Positions 8,299 to 20,395 of a stretch of 42,480 nt of DNA are shown here, in pieces (within the stretch, counting starts at the first letter, position 1; each line of letters opens with the position of its first letter). A program made the translations under genes and the position numbers. The notes below the pieces were generated by a model. It saw only the letters and a program-made list of their open reading frames with translations. It made no database searches and had not been told where the DNA came from. Origin of the DNA: Desulfomicrobium sp. (GTDB lineage Bacteria > Desulfobacterota > Desulfovibrionia > Desulfovibrionales > Desulfomicrobiaceae). The stretch is from positions 1 to 42,480 of the forward strand of contig JANJWV010000183.1 in the NCBI GenBank assembly GCA_024709365.1, in the 5' to 3' direction.

Positions 8299-9690
8299 AT
8301 GCCCATTTCCACACAGCGACAGACGGAAATCCGCGAGCTTCTGCTTGATCACCCCGGGGGGCTGACCAGTACCGGCATTCGGGAGGCTCTGAACGATCCC
8401 CCTCATCCGCGTACAGTCCAGCGCTGGCTGGCAGAGCTCAGGGAGAGCGGGCTTCTGGCGGTTGCCGGTCAAGGCCGGGCAACCGTGTACAGCCTGGGCG
8501 CCGCGGCCTTGTCCGACCGGTCAGAGGAGCCGGGGCTGTCCGGCGCCGAGGCCGTCGCTGAGGCCAGCATCCCCCTGTCCGAGGAAGGCAGGGAGATTCT
8601 GGCCTACATCCGCCGCCCACGAACCGGGCGGACCCCGGTCGGGTATGAGCGGAGCTTTCTCGACGACTATGTCCCGAACGCGACGTGGTATCTGGGCGAA
8701 GTCGCCAGGCGGCATCTGCGGCGCATCGGCGACACGGGCGCGTTCGACAGGCCGGCCGGGACGCATGGGCGGGCGATTCTGAGCCGGCTGCTGATCGACC
8801 TTTCCTGGGCCTCGAGCCGCCTGGAGGGCAACACGTATTCGCGTCTCGAAACGCGCAATCTGATCGAGTTCGGTCGACAGGCCGAAGGCAAGGATGCCCA
8901 GGATACCCAGATGATCCTGAACCACAAGGCGGCCATCGAACTGATGCTGGACGAGGCGGATTCCGTGGGCTTCGACGCGCAGACCTTTCTGAGCCTGCAC
9001 GGGCTGCTGTCCGAAAACCTGATGTCCGACCCGGAAGCCTCTGGACGCCTGCGCACCCGGCCCGTGCATATCGGCGGGTCCGTCTTCGTGCCCCTGGCCT
9101 TGCCCCAGGTCGTCACGGAGTGCTTCCGCACCATTCTCGACAAGGCTGCGGCCATCGTGGACCCTTTCGAACAGGCGTTCTTCGTGCTGGTTCACATCCC
9201 GTATCTCCAGCCGTTCGAAGATGTGAACAAGAGGGTCTCGCGCCTTGGCGCCAACATCCCGCTGATCAAGAGCAACCTGTCGCCCCTGACGTTCATCGAC
9301 GTGCCGGACAGGACGTATGTGGACGCGATTCTGGGCGTGTACGAAATGAACCGCATCGAATTGCTCCGCGACCTTTTCGTCTGGGCCTATGAGCGATCCG
9401 CGCGGGAGTATGTGGCCGTGCGCAAGAGCCTGGCTGATCCTGATCCGATCCGGCTCCGGTATCGGCAGGAATTGCGGGAGTTGATCGCAGGACTCGTGCG
9501 GACCGGACGGCAGGACGTGTTGCCGGCCGTGGAGCGGTTCGCGGCTGACAGGGTCGGGAAACGGGACCGCGAAGCCTTTGTCGAAATGGTACAGGATGAA
9601 TTGAAGCGGCTCCATCCGGGAATTCTGGCGCGGTATCGACTCCGGCTTTCCGAATTCGAGGCCTGGCAGGCTGCGAGAAGGCTGTCATGA
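8299..9690 (+). CDS. Fic family protein with N-terminal HTH, noncanonical core
   Basis: This protein has 463 residues. Residues ~4-70 form a winged-helix/HTH-like domain (TSTGIREAL, RTVQRWLAELRESGLL). A Fic domain follows, with the inhibitory-helix motif S172-x3-E176-G177 (SSRLEGN) and the active-site loop at 304-315. That loop reads QPFEDVNKRVSR, where canonical AMP-transferring Fic enzymes have HPFxxGNGRxxR. The catalytic His is replaced by Gln and the first Gly by Val, while the downstream N, R and R are kept. The ATG at 8299 is preceded by AAGG 7 nt upstream; the frame extends 24 codons further but through the palindromic operator. Inference: a DNA-binding regulator, or a Fic protein with altered chemistry, controlling its own promoter. 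Confidence 0.82.
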   Translation: MPISTQRQTEIRELLLDHPGGLTSTGIREALNDPPHPRTVQRWLAELRESGLLAVAGQGRATVYSLGAAALSDRSEEPGLSGAEAVAEASIPLSEEGREILAYIRRPRTGRTPVGYERSFLDDYVPNATWYLGEVARRHLRRIGDTGAFDRPAGTHGRAILSRLLIDLSWASSRLEGNTYSRLETRNLIEFGRQAEGKDAQDTQMILNHKAAIELMLDEADSVGFDAQTFLSLHGLLSENLMSDPEASGRLRTRPVHIGGSVFVPLALPQVVTECFRTILDKAAAIVDPFEQAFFVLVHIPYLQPFEDVNKRVSRLGANIPLIKSNLSPLTFIDVPDRTYVDAILGVYEMNRIELLRDLFVWAYERSAREYVAVRKSLADPDPIRLRYRQELRELIAGLVRTGRQDVLPAVERFAADRVGKRDREAFVEMVQDELKRLHPGILARYRLRLSEFEAWQAARRLS

Positions 9691-15473: not shown

Positions 15474-15827
15474 TCACGCCACGGGCCCGAGCCTTTCCTC
15501 CCCGCCAATCCAGACATAGACCCAGGCCCGCGCCACGCCCGCGTCCGTCTCCACGGACACCTCGATCCGCGCATACTCATCGCCTTCGTATCCGTCCAGG
15601 ACCGCCAGCTCCTCCCGGGCAAGGTCCGCGTAGACGCTCCCCAGGACCAGCCCGCCCGGTTTGGCGACGATGGCCGGGTAGGTTTCGTCGCGCACTTCAC
15701 GGCGAACGAACCCGTTCAGCCTTGCCGGGGCGGGACGCGAAGCCCGGCCCAGCAGTCCGGTGCAGACGGCCGGGTCGGCCAGGGTGCCGTACACGAAGAG
15801 GCGTTGCAATGCAGGCCGCGATTTCAT
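15474..15827 (-). CDS. Gamma-glutamylcyclotransferase-like (AIG2/GGCT) protein
   Basis: This 117-residue protein has the family hallmarks: FVYGTLADP (11-19, substrate loop), a central VLGSVYADL, and LDGYEGDEYAR (77-87), in which E81 matches the catalytic glutamate. Characterised members release 5-oxoproline from gamma-glutamyl amines; the exact substrate here is unknown. It starts 20 bp after the ABC ATPase gene, so it may be the last gene of that operon. Its ribosome site is weak. It is convergent with the TIGR02285-like gene. Confidence 0.8.
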   Translation of the reverse strand: MKSRPALQRLFVYGTLADPAVCTGLLGRASRPAPARLNGFVRREVRDETYPAIVAKPGGLVLGSVYADLAREELAVLDGYEGDEYARIEVSVETDAGVARAWVYVWIGGEERLGPVA

Positions 15828-15847
15828 GCCGTTTCGGGCCCGGCGTC

Positions 15848-16513
15848 TCAGTCGACGATCCTGCCGTCTTCAAGGCGCAGGGCCCGGTCGGCCAGGGCCG
15901 TCACTTCCGGGTCGTGGGTCGCGGTCAGGGTGGTCCGCCCCTCCTCCCGCCCGACCCGGAACATGAGATCCATGAGATTGCGGGCCGTGGCGGAGTCCAG
16001 GCTGGCCGTGGGCTCGTCGGCCAGGAGGATTTGCGGCCGGTGGGCGATGGACCGGGCGAAGGCCACGCGCTGCGTCTCCCCGCCCGAGAGCTCCCGGGGC
16101 AGGGCCTTGGCCGCCCCGGCCAGGCCGATGCGTTCCAGCAGTTCCCCGACGCGCCGCGCGCACTCGGCCGGGCCGACGTTGTTGAGGCGCAGCGGGAAGG
16201 CCACGTTCTCGGCCACGGTCAGGCAGGACAAGAGATTGCCGAACTGGAACAGGAAGCCGACATGCGCCCGCAGGAAACGGGACAGGGCCCGTCCCGTCAG
16301 GGTGTGCACCGGCCGGTCGAGACAGATGATCGAACCCGTGTCGGGACGCTCCAGCCCGCCGACGAGGTAGAGCAGGGTGGTCTTGCCGGAACCGGACCGG
16401 CCCATCAGGGCCAGGCTTTTCCCGGTTTCAAGGTCGAAGGACACCCCGGCGATGACCGGGGTCACGCCGCGGGGGGAAGTGAAAGATTTGCTGACGTTTT
16501 CGACGCGGATCAT
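15848..16513 (-). CDS. ABC transporter ATP-binding protein (LolD/MacB type)
   Basis: This 221-residue ATPase has Walker A GRSGSGKT (38-45), Q-loop FQFGNL (89-94) and signature LSGGETQR (142-149). Walker B ILLADEPTASLD (162-173) and an H-loop THDPEV complete the set. The short length and sequence style match the LolD/MacB/FtsE class, which energises lipoprotein, lipid or small-molecule extrusion rather than classical import. Its start is separated by one base from the permease stop, so translation is coupled. It should pair with the single FtsX-like permease encoded just upstream. Confidence 0.92.
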   Translation of the reverse strand: MIRVENVSKSFTSPRGVTPVIAGVSFDLETGKSLALMGRSGSGKTTLLYLVGGLERPDTGSIICLDRPVHTLTGRALSRFLRAHVGFLFQFGNLLSCLTVAENVAFPLRLNNVGPAECARRVGELLERIGLAGAAKALPRELSGGETQRVAFARSIAHRPQILLADEPTASLDSATARNLMDLMFRVGREEGRTTLTATHDPEVTALADRALRLEDGRIVD

Positions 16514-16514
16514 G

Positions 16515-17669
16515 TCAGATGCTCCTCAGCACTTCGGCCGGGCGCTGGCGCGCGATGATGCAGACCGGCCAGATGCCGGCGAGGAGCGCGAAAAGCAGGG
16601 CCATCAGAGGGGGGAGCGCAAGCCCGGAAGCGGTCAGCCGGGGATAGATGACGCCGGAGACCGCGAAATACTGATTGTGGGAGGTCATGGCGCCCAGGTC
16701 CACTCCCGGACCGGCCACGGCCAGGGTCAGGCCGCAGCCGACGAGAACGCCCAGCATCGACGCGGCCAGGGTCAGGCCGCCGATCTCCAGAAGCAGCAGC
16801 AGCGCCGTCTCCGGCGAGGAGACGCCCATGGACTTCATGATCCCGTGTTCGCGGATGTTCTTCAGGATGAAGATGACGAAGGCGCAGGCGATGCCGAGGG
16901 ACACGATGAAGAAGACCAGGACCATGACCAGGAGCATGCACAGCGCGTTGAGGTCGATGAGCTGCTTGAGGTCGGGCATGCGCTCGGCCCAGGTCTGCGC
17001 CCTCGCTTCCTGCGGCAGGCGCAGGGCGTCCCGCACGGTTTCCGGGGATGCGCCGTCGGCCAGGAAGAGGGCCGCCTGCCATGGGGAATCGCCGTCCTCC
17101 CCCTGGTCGGGACGGAAGGACAACCCCTTGTCCAGGGCCGCTATGCCCGTGCGGAAGGTGCCGCAGAGGACGTACTCCGTGCCCGCTTGCGACGGGTCGC
17201 CGGCGACGGTCACCGTGTCGCCGATGCCGAGGCCGAGTTCGGCGGCCACGGGCTCGCCCAGGAAAAGCTGGCGCGTACCTTTTTCAGGGTAGCTGCCTGC
17301 CGTCGTTTTCCGCCACAGGGCCGTGGCGTTGCGCTCCGCATCGGGGTCCACGGACCACAGCGTCGTGCCGGTCAGTTTTTCGCCGCTGCGCAGCCAGACC
17401 TGCGCGGCCCTGCGTCTGAGGACCTGCTCGACCCCGGGGGGCCGCAGAGAGTCCGGGGACAGGCCGGAAGGCAGGTTTTCGATCGAGAGGTGCCCGGAGA
17501 CGAGGCTGACGGAGTTGCGGATCATGGCGTCGCTCACGCCCACGGCCAGGGCGTCCAGAAAGACGAGGGTCGCCACGGCGGAGACGATCATGGCGGCCAG
17601 GACGGCGGTCGATCTGCGCGACCGCCACAGGAAGCGCCAGGCGACGCCCCACCACAGGCGCAGGCTCAT
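16515..17669 (-). CDS. ABC permease, FtsX/MacB (LolCE-like) family
   Basis: This 384-residue membrane protein has one N-terminal transmembrane helix (~20-42) and a large periplasmic MacB-PCD-like region (SLVSGHLSIENL, GLGIGDTVTV, WAERMPDLKQLI). Three C-terminal helices belong to the FtsX domain (IACAFVIFILKNIREHGIMKSMGVSS). The last motif is the usual coupling region of LolC/E and MacB permeases. The ATG at 17669 has GGAGG 7 nt upstream and overlaps the stop of the isoprenoid-enzyme gene by 4 bp (ATGA). One permease and one ATPase would form a homodimeric type VII exporter. The cargo is unknown; context suggests the upstream enzymes' lipid product. Confidence 0.88.
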   Translation of the reverse strand: MSLRLWWGVAWRFLWRSRRSTAVLAAMIVSAVATLVFLDALAVGVSDAMIRNSVSLVSGHLSIENLPSGLSPDSLRPPGVEQVLRRRAAQVWLRSGEKLTGTTLWSVDPDAERNATALWRKTTAGSYPEKGTRQLFLGEPVAAELGLGIGDTVTVAGDPSQAGTEYVLCGTFRTGIAALDKGLSFRPDQGEDGDSPWQAALFLADGASPETVRDALRLPQEARAQTWAERMPDLKQLIDLNALCMLLVMVLVFFIVSLGIACAFVIFILKNIREHGIMKSMGVSSPETALLLLLEIGGLTLAASMLGVLVGCGLTLAVAGPGVDLGAMTSHNQYFAVSGVIYPRLTASGLALPPLMALLFALLAGIWPVCIIARQRPAEVLRSI

Positions 17670-18667
17670 GCCCGCGCCTCCGGATCGAGGAGGTCGCCGG
17701 CGCCGATGCGGCGGACAAGAAAATCGACGGCCGCGGGGATGAGGGGCGCTCCTTGCGGCCCGAGCAGCGCGCGCAGGCCGTCGCCCAGGAAGGCCATGGC
17801 CTGCGCCGACGCCTCCCGCCGCGCTTCGGGGTGGCGCTCCATCAGGGCCCGCACGTCGTCGGCCCCTTCCAGCCCGGCCCGCGCCGCCTCCCTGTCCGCC
17901 GATCTGTGTACGATGAGCGAGGCCAGGTAGTTGTGCCGGTGCATGGCGCGGTCCGCCGCGAGGTCGACCATGTCGTCGAGGACCTGGCAGCCCATGCCGA
18001 TGCGGTACAGGGCGTCGGCCAGGGGCTCCGCCACGGGCGCCAGGGCCGGTTCCAGCGCCAGGGGCACTGCCCAGACGCAGCGGAAGAGCAGCCCGGTCTT
18101 CAGGTGGTGGATTTCGCCGAGGATGCGTTCCGGTTCGAGGGTCTCGAAGACCCCGCCTTCCTCCGACGCCTCCTCGGCGCCGCTGAAGGTCAGGGCCCGC
18201 AGGGACGCGGCGTGGGCCCGGCGGACCGCTTCGAGGGGCACGCCCTGCGCTTCGTGCAGGTCCAGGAGGATGTCGAACAGCACCCGGTCCGAAACCATGA
18301 TGTCGATGATGGAGCGGAAGCGCGTGCCCGGAAGGTCGGTGTCCAGGGTCTTCTTGTACTCGTCGTCGAGGATGTTGTCGCACCCCGTGACCATGCCCCG
18401 CAGGCACTGGTTGACGGCCGCGAAGGCCGTGCGTCGGGCCGGGTCGATGCCCGCGCGGTGGAAGGAGAGCAGAAAGAGGGCCGAGAAGAAGTTGTGGCGC
18501 AGCTGGAAGAATTCCGGTCCCGGGGCGGCCAGGTTCACCCCGCTGTTGTCCAGGATGCGGCGGGCAATGTCCCAATAGAGCTGCAGCCCGGCCCGCAGCT
18601 CCCCTTCCAGGTCCGGCTGCCCGGCCATGCGCGGCGCGGACTGCAGCAGGTCGACGATGTCCATCAT
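17666..18667 (-). CDS. Class-1 isoprenoid (polyprenyl synthase-like) enzyme
   Basis: This 333-residue all-helical protein resembles trans-prenyl diphosphate synthases. A first acidic motif DNILDDE (97-103) departs from DDxxD. HHLKTG (187-192) contains the usual K-T pair, and a good second acidic motif DDMVD (231-235) follows. The Asn in the first motif and the lack of the typical RR after it argue against an ordinary chain-elongating IspA-like enzyme. It may act as a terpene synthase, prenyltransferase or head-to-head enzyme. The start at 18667 overlaps the methyltransferase stop by 4 bp; a second ATG at 18664 is equally possible. The gene lies between a methyltransferase and an ABC exporter. 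Confidence 0.75.
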   Translation of the reverse strand: MMDIVDLLQSAPRMAGQPDLEGELRAGLQLYWDIARRILDNSGVNLAAPGPEFFQLRHNFFSALFLLSFHRAGIDPARRTAFAAVNQCLRGMVTGCDNILDDEYKKTLDTDLPGTRFRSIIDIMVSDRVLFDILLDLHEAQGVPLEAVRRAHAASLRALTFSGAEEASEEGGVFETLEPERILGEIHHLKTGLLFRCVWAVPLALEPALAPVAEPLADALYRIGMGCQVLDDMVDLAADRAMHRHNYLASLIVHRSADREAARAGLEGADDVRALMERHPEARREASAQAMAFLGDGLRALLGPQGAPLIPAAVDFLVRRIGAGDLLDPEARA

Positions 18668-19320
18668 GGCCTCGTGGTTGAAAAGACGGCGATGTAGCCG
18701 AAATAGCAGGCTTCGATCCGCGGCTGGGCGAAGCCTGCCCGAAGCATGAGTTCCGGGAGGATGCCCCGCGTGTTCTCGCCGATCTCCGGTTGCATGAGGA
18801 CCCATCTGGAGACGTGGGAGATGAGGGCGCCCAGCAGGGTGGTCGGGACGTGCATGTCCGCGACGATGAGCTTTCCGCCTGGCTTGAGGACGCGGAAGGC
18901 TTCCTGGAAGGCCCTGAGCTTGAGGTCAGCGTCGACATGGTGGAAGAACAGGCTCGAAACCACGGCGTCGAAGCTGCCGTCCTCGAAGTCCAGGCTTTCG
19001 GCGGCCATGGGCGTGTACCAGGTGGCCGGGGTGGAGCGCTTTTCCCGAGCCACCCTGATCATTTTGGCCGCGGCGTCGATGCCGACGGCCTGGCCCCCGC
19101 CGGAGGGGTCGAGACGTTCGGCGATGGACAGGGTCAGCGTACCCGTCCCGCAGCCCAGGTCCAGAACCCTGTCCGACGGGCGAAGCGCGAGGAGGTTGAC
19201 GATGTCGCGTTCGTACTCGGCCTGCTTGCCGAGCATGATGAGCGGTTCGACGAAATCGTAGACGGCGGCGGCGTGGTCGAGAGTGCGCCCTCTGGTGGGC
19301 ACCGAGGAGGAATCGGGCAC
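18664..19320 (-). CDS. SAM-dependent methyltransferase (UbiE-like)
   Basis: This 218-residue class I methyltransferase has motif I VLDLGCGTGTLTLS (~53-66), an acidic loop VGIDAAAKMI and motif III FRVLKPGGKLIVADM. YDFVEPLIMLG near the N-terminus is reminiscent of quinone or lipid methyltransferases. I chose the GTG at 19320, which has GAGG 6 nt upstream; the open frame runs 30 codons further with low-complexity arginine-rich sequence. As first gene of the operon with the isoprenoid enzyme, permease and ATPase, it may methylate the isoprenoid-derived product. Confidence 0.83.
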   Translation of the reverse strand: MPDSSSVPTRGRTLDHAAAVYDFVEPLIMLGKQAEYERDIVNLLALRPSDRVLDLGCGTGTLTLSIAERLDPSGGGQAVGIDAAAKMIRVAREKRSTPATWYTPMAAESLDFEDGSFDAVVSSLFFHHVDADLKLRAFQEAFRVLKPGGKLIVADMHVPTTLLGALISHVSRWVLMQPEIGENTRGILPELMLRAGFAQPRIEACYFGYIAVFSTTRP

Positions 19321-19429
19321 GGTGTACCTCGCAGTATGGCCCGGGCTCCGGGCCCGGGGCGGTGTTCGTGTTGCGGGCCGGATTTTGAACCTCTCCGGTC
19401 CGAAAGGCAACAGGATTTCCGCGGCGGGG

Positions 19430-20395
19430 TCAGTACCAGTATCCCCACCAGCCTCCGCGTGGCCTCTGCCGCAGACGGACGTGGGGGAAGGAGGGCGGTT
19501 CGAAGGAGTAGCCGCCCCATGCGTCCGGCGTGCGTTCCGGCCGCAGGTCGCGCAGGCGGCGGACTCGCTCCTCCGTGGTCGGGTGGGTGCGCAGCCAGGA
19601 CGGTTCGGGCAGGCCCCGGCCGGGGAAGAAGATGCGGCGCAGGAAGCCGTTCTGGACCCGTTCCAGCTTGAGCAGGGCCGAAGCCAGCCCGTCGGGGTCG
19701 TCGGTCAGGCGGGCGGCCGTCAGGTCCGCGTCGAATTCGCGGGTGCGCGACAGGCCGAGCTGGGCCAGGAGGCTGACCTGCGGGGCGGCGGCCAGGAGGA
19801 TGAGGGGCCACCAGTCCACATCGCCGCCGGCCAGGGCCTGGGGCAGGGACATGAAGATGAGCACGAGGCCCACGAAGCTCATGGCCGAGGTGATGCGCGA
19901 GATGACGTCGGCCAGGCCCATGACGAAGAGGTCGCCGTGGGCGATGTGGGCCGTCTCGTGGGCCAGCACCGCCACGAGCTCGCGCGGGGAGAGGGTGCGC
20001 AGCAGACCGTCGGTCACGGCGATGGCCGAGGCGTCGCGGCTGCCGACGGCGAAGGCGTTGACCATGGGGCTCGGCACCCACCACAGGGACGGCGGACCGG
20101 GAAGGCCGACGCGTCCCGCCAGCACGGACAGGGCCTGGTGGTACTCGGGAGCCTGGTCAGGCGGCACGGGGCGGGCGCCGTACATCCTGAGTACCCAGCG
20201 GGCCGAGAGCTGCGGGGAGAAGAGGAGCAGGAACGCCCCCCAGATCACGAGAAACCACAGTCCGTCGGGCCCCCAGAGCATCCAGCCGACGAAGCCGGCG
20301 TAACCCGTCATGAGGCCGAGCAGGAGCAGGGTCTGCAGGCGGTTCAGGCCGCGGTGGGAGGAGAAGCGGGCGGGATCGATGGAGGCGGCGCGCAT
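19430..20395 (-). CDS. M48-family membrane metallopeptidase (HtpX-like)
   Basis: This 321-residue inner-membrane protein carries HETAH (146-150) within VAVLAHETAHIAHGD, the zinc-binding HExxH motif. E220 in SRTREFDADLTAARL is the probable third ligand. Hydrophobic segments lie at about 20-42, 46-60, 160-190 and 195-212. The C-terminus holds the family THPTTEERVRRL and ends in a Trp/Tyr/Gly-rich tail. HtpX-type proteases act in membrane protein quality control. GGAG lies 7 nt before the ATG at 20395. It is on the same strand as the isoprenoid operon, but a 109-bp gap suggests a separate promoter for the latter. Confidence 0.88.
   Translation of the reverse strand: MRAASIDPARFSSHRGLNRLQTLLLLGLMTGYAGFVGWMLWGPDGLWFLVIWGAFLLLFSPQLSARWVLRMYGARPVPPDQAPEYHQALSVLAGRVGLPGPPSLWWVPSPMVNAFAVGSRDASAIAVTDGLLRTLSPRELVAVLAHETAHIAHGDLFVMGLADVISRITSAMSFVGLVLIFMSLPQALAGGDVDWWPLILLAAAPQVSLLAQLGLSRTREFDADLTAARLTDDPDGLASALLKLERVQNGFLRRIFFPGRGLPEPSWLRTHPTTEERVRRLRDLRPERTPDAWGGYSFEPPSFPHVRLRQRPRGGWWGYWY

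Follow-up and report, generated by a model that had tools for sequence, protein, structure and literature searches.

A conserved four-gene module associates a putative non-elongating prenyl enzyme and a methyltransferase with a Lol-family pump

Introduction

What might a class I isoprenoid enzyme and a methyltransferase accomplish when they are encoded in one operon with a membrane pump? The question is raised by a 42,480-nucleotide stretch of DNA from Desulfomicrobium sp. (GenBank assembly GCA_024709365.1, contig JANJWV010000183.1; hereafter the window), in which four minus-strand genes at positions 15848–19320 encode an S-adenosylmethionine (SAM)-dependent methyltransferase, a class I isoprenoid enzyme, a permease and an ATP-binding cassette (ABC) ATPase. 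An initial annotation, made from the sequence alone, had noted that no named system is known to have this content, and our search of a paper library for such a gene set likewise found nothing relevant; the combination of these known superfamilies is apparently undescribed as a set. Here, we find that the four genes are a real conserved module, beyond chance, and that an annotation such as 'polyprenyl synthetase plus MacB-like exporter' conceals a distinct family.

Results and discussion

Organization of the operon

The order of transcription begins with the methyltransferase (18664–19320, 218 residues, GTG start), followed by the isoprenoid enzyme (17666–18664, 332 residues), the permease (16515–17669, 384 residues) and the ATPase, which is a gene of its own (15848–16513, 221 residues). 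All junctions are overlaps of at most 4 bp or are 1 bp wide. The isoprenoid enzyme starts at ATG 18664 or at 18667, the latter giving an ATGA overlap with the methyltransferase; the permease ATG (17669) overlaps the end of the isoprenoid enzyme by 4 bp, and the ATPase ATG (16513) follows the permease end (16515) after a 1-bp gap. These starts, stops and spacings are all as first described. The four frames leave no room for promoters between them, and a promoter and terminator scan yielded nothing exceeding shuffled sequence. No RNA families or tRNAs were found, and a recent foreign origin was rejected on composition, the GC content of the operon and that of its third codon positions being the same as in the window. 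Pfam assigns the methyltransferase to Methyltransf_25 (4.7e-24), the permease to FtsX (2.5e-9) and the ATPase to ABC_tran (2e-31). The isoprenoid enzyme matches polyprenyl_synt only weakly (1.3e-4), over 58 residues and below the cut-off.

Conservation of the gene set

We next asked whether homologues of the isoprenoid enzyme are scattered without the exporter or methyltransferase, one of two outcomes named initially as refuting a coupled pathway. Searching named genomes for members of the enzyme family returned 80 loci, and a survey of the phylum added more; linkage was counted over the 68 loci that were not duplicates and had sufficient contig to either side. The homologues are not scattered: permease and ATPase are adjacent in 53 of the 68 loci, with the permease alone in 4 more, the methyltransferase lies next to the enzyme gene in 53 of 68, and all four genes occur together in 47. 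The commonest order, as determined by profile searches in all frames, is methyltransferase-enzyme-permease-ATPase (M-P-F-D), and the second is enzyme-methyltransferase-permease-ATPase (P-M-F-D). In a maximum-likelihood tree of the enzyme (quick method), a mainly M-P-F-D clade of 37 rows that includes the window has an SH-aLRT value of 99 (Shimodaira–Hasegawa-like approximate likelihood ratio test), and the other part of the tree is mainly P-M-F-D. Because the two orders are found mainly in separate parts of the tree, the set stays together through rearrangement. It also persists down to approximately 30% enzyme identity, and the linkage spans several phyla.

The carriers are mostly anaerobic bacteria, from lineages that are mostly relatives of sulfate reducers. 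Within the phylum sampled the enzyme family occurs only sporadically (matches at E 0.001 in 18 of 297 genomes, several being weak). The closest full relative, 75% identical over the isoprenoid enzyme, comes from an uncultured Desulfomicrobium. The 11 loci without an adjacent same-strand permease include two assembly gaps (L054 and L089), one locus with permease and ATPase on the opposite strand (L033) and three members (L035, L036 and L038) of a lone-enzyme clade to which L037 also belongs.

Three further observations concern these relatives. The lone-enzyme clade is divergent and lacks pump and methyltransferase, and it has other conserved neighbours (PtsP-like and HtpG-like by eye). Some metagenome-assembled genomes that carry the operon (L073, L042, L046 and L047) are labelled Oxalobacter, Myxococcota or Pseudomonadota and have enzymes that group with those of Desulfobacterota, so that labels or binning may be off. 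The enzyme gene is split by an apparent frameshift at positions 2321–3333 of L028 (same contig as L072) and 8001–8919 of L104, where assembly error or decay is possible.

The isoprenoid enzyme

The AlphaFold2 model of the isoprenoid enzyme (mean predicted local distance difference test score, pLDDT, 93.9) has the trans-isoprenyl diphosphate synthase (trans-IDS) fold. The closest solved folds are all polyprenyl synthases (4jyx_A, Z 20.6, root-mean-square deviation 3.9 over 288 residues), and a profile of 56 relatives matches solved geranylgeranyl and farnesyl diphosphate (GGPP/FPP) synthases at 4.5e-8. To define the motif states, these 56 relatives were compared with the IspA- and IspB-like proteins of the window's genome, two ordinary polyprenyl synthases encoded on other contigs.

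The altered first aspartate motif noted initially (DNILDDE) is present at residues 96–102, as part of DNILD-DE-x-K (residues 96–104), in which D96-N97-x-x-D100-x-E102-x-K104 is invariant among the relatives. All 56 thus have DNxxD instead of the canonical DDxxD; RRG is absent, with an ExYK-like sequence in its place. The second motif, QVLDDMVD (residues 227–234), is intact, with Q227, D230, D231 and D234 in 56 of 56, and KTG is retained (K189 in 55 and T190 in 45 of 56). The GGKRxRP motif, which binds isopentenyl diphosphate (IPP), now reads [RK]N-F, with the first arginine replaced by asparagine in 52 and the second by phenylalanine in all 56 sequences, and the histidine that precedes the first motif is found in none; this stretch was aligned via the IspA-like sequence only, the profile-profile alignment (hhalign) running from the first motif onward. 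Further invariant residues are R89, K104, E165 and E168, with R127 and N245 nearly so. The invariant residues of Mg-ligand type (D96, D100, E165, E168, Q227, D230, D231 and D234), together with the nearly invariant K189, argue for catalysis, and from sequence the motif pattern is that predicted for an enzyme ionising a prenyl diphosphate without the usual IPP addition.

Compared with canonical polyprenyl and FPP synthases such as IspA and IspB, the operon enzyme therefore shares the fold, KTG and QxxDDxxD, but differs by DNxxD, the loss of most of GGKRxRP and the lack of RRG. On these motifs, it is not an ordinary FPP/GGPP synthase, the other outcome named initially as refuting, as the first motif is altered, the IPP motif is mostly lost and two ordinary synthases are encoded elsewhere. 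That an ordinary prenyl diphosphate synthase lies beside a pump by chance is highly improbable: the fold and second motif of prenyl synthases and the basic residue that 73% of sequences retain at one position of the IPP motif would fit it, but not the first motif, altered in all 56 relatives, the mostly lost IPP motif, the Pfam score below cut-off, the two ordinary synthases of the genome or a linkage kept across several phyla.

A terpene-type pathway, in which a class I cyclase or ionising enzyme acts on a prenyl diphosphate that has first been methylated and the pump exports the terpenoid, would likewise account for the pairing of a methyltransferase with a class I enzyme that has invariant acidic motifs and has mostly lost the IPP motif; a methyltransferase-first order is known from methylated-terpene pathways. 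We consider this quite unlikely, given that the second motif has the DDxxD of prenyl synthases rather than the NSE/DTE of cyclases, that the nearest folds are polyprenyl synthases and that Lol-type pumps suit membrane lipids better than volatile terpenes.

Precedent for the loss of chain elongation comes from the trans-IDS-like prenyltransferases ComQ, PalQ and Ord1, which act on tryptophan and in which the second motif serves an acceptor other than IPP (PMC13290415, PMC10853753). The operon enzyme resembles ComQ, PalQ, the P domain of ChrPC and Ord1 in its trans-IDS fold and in an apparent abandonment of IPP elongation; the glutamine before the second aspartate motif is common to them too, but ordinary synthases also have it. 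It differs by its DNxxD first motif and by the linkage to genes for a methyltransferase and a Lol-type exporter; ComQ, moreover, lacks a DDxxD second motif (PMC10853753), whereas the operon enzyme retains it in full. Ord1 structures are among the fold matches, with Z about 17.5 versus 20.6 for an ordinary synthase, and because structure does not bring Ord1 nearer than the ordinary synthases, we do not claim membership of the ComQ/Ord1 group. No conserved precursor-peptide-like open reading frame was seen in neighbourhood clustering of the related loci.

The methyltransferase

Members of the methyltransferase family are 40–65% identical to the window protein, with an HH pair and the SAM-binding motif invariant. 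The best curated relative is CpaM (107.8 bits, cut-off 180), and UbiE scores 82 of 216 bits. The protein has the class I SAM fold in common with UbiE/MenG and CpaM but scores below every curated cut-off, and the true UbiE of the genome is located on another contig (C136). Ordinary quinone biosynthesis was considered as a function of the operon and ruled out, as UbiE and polyprenyl synthases are encoded elsewhere in the genome.

The exporter

The permease and ATPase had been described as a MacB-type exporter, an assignment that we revise. By profile, the permease is closest to LolF (5.6e-38), LolE (9.2e-32) and LolC (2.2e-28), far ahead of MacB (1.2e-13), and its structure model (pLDDT 91.5) aligns with lipoprotein-bound LolE at Z 28.7, compared to about 20 for MacB. 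With MacAB-TolC the operon shares the broad ABC permease superfamily (FtsX/MacB/Lol), but the similarity is weaker, 53 related loci have permease and ATPase as unfused genes, as does the window, and no MacA-like gene was seen. MacB-type efflux was accordingly rejected in favour of the Lol family, which gives the better profile E-values and structural Z scores. A defence system was also rejected: PADLOC returned only generic matches for the ATPase and methyltransferase and left the permease and the isoprenoid enzyme without a hit.

The pump shares with LolDF/LolCDE the permease fold and sequence and a separate LolD-like ATPase, and it has a single permease as in LolF systems. It differs by its tie to biosynthetic genes and by scores below the NCBIfam equivalog cut-offs (LolC/E, 61.5 of 362.45 bits; LolD, 192.5 bits with a cut-off of 307.75). 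It further differs in the Hook, a hairpin needed for LolA recruitment in E. coli (PMC10865981). The loop at the Hook position measures 7–13 residues in all aligned family members with residues there, as compared to 17 in the LolC/F of the same genome, and L107 has none there. The permease thus lacks the Hook and is a paralogue of the genome's LolC/F lipoprotein-release pump whose hand-over side has been changed.

Accessory genes in relatives

A fifth gene comes directly after that of the ATPase in 28 loci, in most of them overlapping it by 4 bp, and encodes a diheme c-type lipoprotein of 75–98 residues (for example, near 3697 in L043, at 3085–3312 in L060 and at 8878–9129 in L047). All 28 have the lipobox cysteine, none has aspartate at +2, and each contains two CxxCH motifs within the consensus gC.Y..YlG.HGps...p..H.....D..CL.CH...t.Hp.F.GClkCHnd. 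The gene is absent from the window, from its congener, from about 10 more relatives in the clade, and from all P-M-F-D loci and all loci with the methyltransferase-free order P-F-D; a search elsewhere in the window's genome gave nothing significant (best E 0.19). In L082 and L091, a degenerate or truncated version with one remaining CxxCH follows otherwise complete operons.

This fifth gene raises two alternatives. In the first, the system would be dedicated to lipoprotein sorting, with the haem lipoprotein as the cargo of the pump and with the enzyme and methyltransferase making a lipid group or ligand for it. The proximity of the permease to LolF/LolE points in this direction, and the coupling of the lipoprotein gene to the ATPase in 28 loci, with lipobox cysteine throughout and no +2 aspartate, is suggestive, though only that. 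Against this stand the many loci that have no diheme lipoprotein, the window and all P-M-F-D and P-F-D loci among them, and the loss of the very Hook that hands lipoproteins to LolA, and we regard such a role as unlikely. In the second, the product would be a quinone-like or other redox-active prenyl lipid of the outer leaflet or outer membrane that is reduced or oxidised by the diheme lipoprotein. A UbiE-class methyltransferase, the coupled lipoprotein and the prevalence of sulfate-reducer relatives would agree with this idea, which we nonetheless consider very unlikely, as the methyltransferase falls short of all quinone-methyltransferase cut-offs, an ordinary UbiE is encoded elsewhere and the cluster is without an aromatic-ring enzyme.

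Other accessory genes, none of them present in the window, accompany further branches. An integral membrane methyltransferase of the ICMT/PEMT type, with LmtA (lipid A phosphate methyltransferase) and isoprenylcysteine methyltransferase as best curated relatives, is encoded just upstream of the enzyme at L111 (7112–7645) and about 17 other loci, in the mainly P-M-F-D part of the tree, and is tied to that gene order; in L066, such a gene lies downstream of an M-P-F-D operon instead. The P-F-D loci L096 (10905–12427), L033 (4026–5460), L094 and L092 include a PAP2 lipid phosphatase in three cases and a conserved secreted, possibly outer-membrane protein without a Pfam match; in several P-F-D loci these genes come after the operon. 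These accessory genes fit lipid or prenyl-phosphate chemistry at the membrane.

Proposed function

Together, the linkage and motif states lead us to propose that the operon may be a 'modify and extract' unit for a prenyl-bearing amphiphile. The isoprenoid enzyme would bind an allylic prenyl diphosphate via Mg2+ on its two acidic motifs and move or rearrange the prenyl group on a non-IPP acceptor, as ComQ, PalQ and Ord1 do, and the UbiE-class methyltransferase would methylate either acceptor or product. This hydrophobic product would go into the inner membrane, from which a homodimeric Lol-type permease and the LolD-like ATPase could lift it toward the periplasm or outer membrane. Because the LolA-recruiting Hook is missing, hand-over would be independent of LolA or proceed via another carrier. 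In the many relatives that encode it, the translationally coupled diheme lipoprotein may work with the exported product or use the same pump. The sequences and models show the linkage, the families and folds, the motif states, the loss of the Hook, the fifth gene and the presence or absence of the operon within the genus, and from there we infer the prenyl transfer, the order of reactions, the cargo, its direction and the role of the haem lipoprotein. The initial reading of the gene order, in which a prenyl-derived lipid would be made, methylated and extruded, is likewise a hypothesis. The whole chain, from prenyl transfer to a non-IPP acceptor through methylation and LolA-independent extraction by a Lol-like pump to co-operation with the haem lipoprotein, is put forward tentatively, at slightly less than an even chance. 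A more specific version is rather doubtful: an undescribed envelope pathway of mostly anaerobic bacteria, in which a new, possibly redox-active prenylated membrane lipid would be the joint product of a methyltransferase and a prenyl enzyme that does not elongate chains, and a Hook-less Lol pump, formerly used for lipoprotein sorting, would deliver it outward to the diheme lipoprotein as its partner.

Several points weigh against the proposed unit. Lol-family pumps normally move lipoproteins, not free lipids. The lone-enzyme clade (L035–L038) and a few other loci are without exporter or methyltransferase. At the first position of the IPP motif, 73% of sequences still have a basic residue, so that IPP may yet be bound, and the glutamine before the second motif, which tryptophan prenyltransferases use (PMC13290415), is also found in the ordinary IspA- and IspB-like proteins of the genome.

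If the proposal is true, machinery for lipoprotein release has taken on a different amphiphile, and the system would show how a Lol-type pump operates without LolA recruitment. A prenyl synthase would have given up chain elongation in a lineage that is widespread and mostly anaerobic and in which many members have a haem lipoprotein attached, and one testable operon would be at hand for finding a new envelope lipid of sulfate reducers.

Distribution within the genus and neighbouring genes

Two resident genes border the operon on the minus strand. Upstream of it is a conserved HtpX-like M48 protease (19430–20395), and downstream, starting at 15827 after a 20-bp gap, is a GGCT/AIG2-like gene (15474–15827; PF06094, GGACT 1.1e-19). 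The initial annotation had listed the latter with the operon; its 20-bp spacing is as described, but its inclusion in the unit is not borne out. No GGCT homologue was found in 98 related loci at E 1e-10. Moreover, in one congener (G008, locus L142) the M48 gene is joined to the GGCT gene, the aligned blocks lying six bases apart, and the operon is absent, the order being M48-GGCT-SBP3. Because M48-GGCT thus exists without the operon, we consider the GGCT gene a resident neighbour and reject it as a fifth pathway step.

The operon is present in only 2 of 16 genomes of the genus, and in congeners the flanking M48 protease and solute-binding-protein genes are directly side by side. In G013 (locus L134), the absent segment corresponds to window positions 15547–19428 and the GGCT gene survives as a 3'-end remnant, so that this gap looks like a deletion. 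Because the Desulfomicrobium pair is placed among rows of Desulfobacterales and Desulfobulbales in the enzyme tree, we infer, as the simplest account, that the operon entered the genus by horizontal transfer and was later lost from some members.

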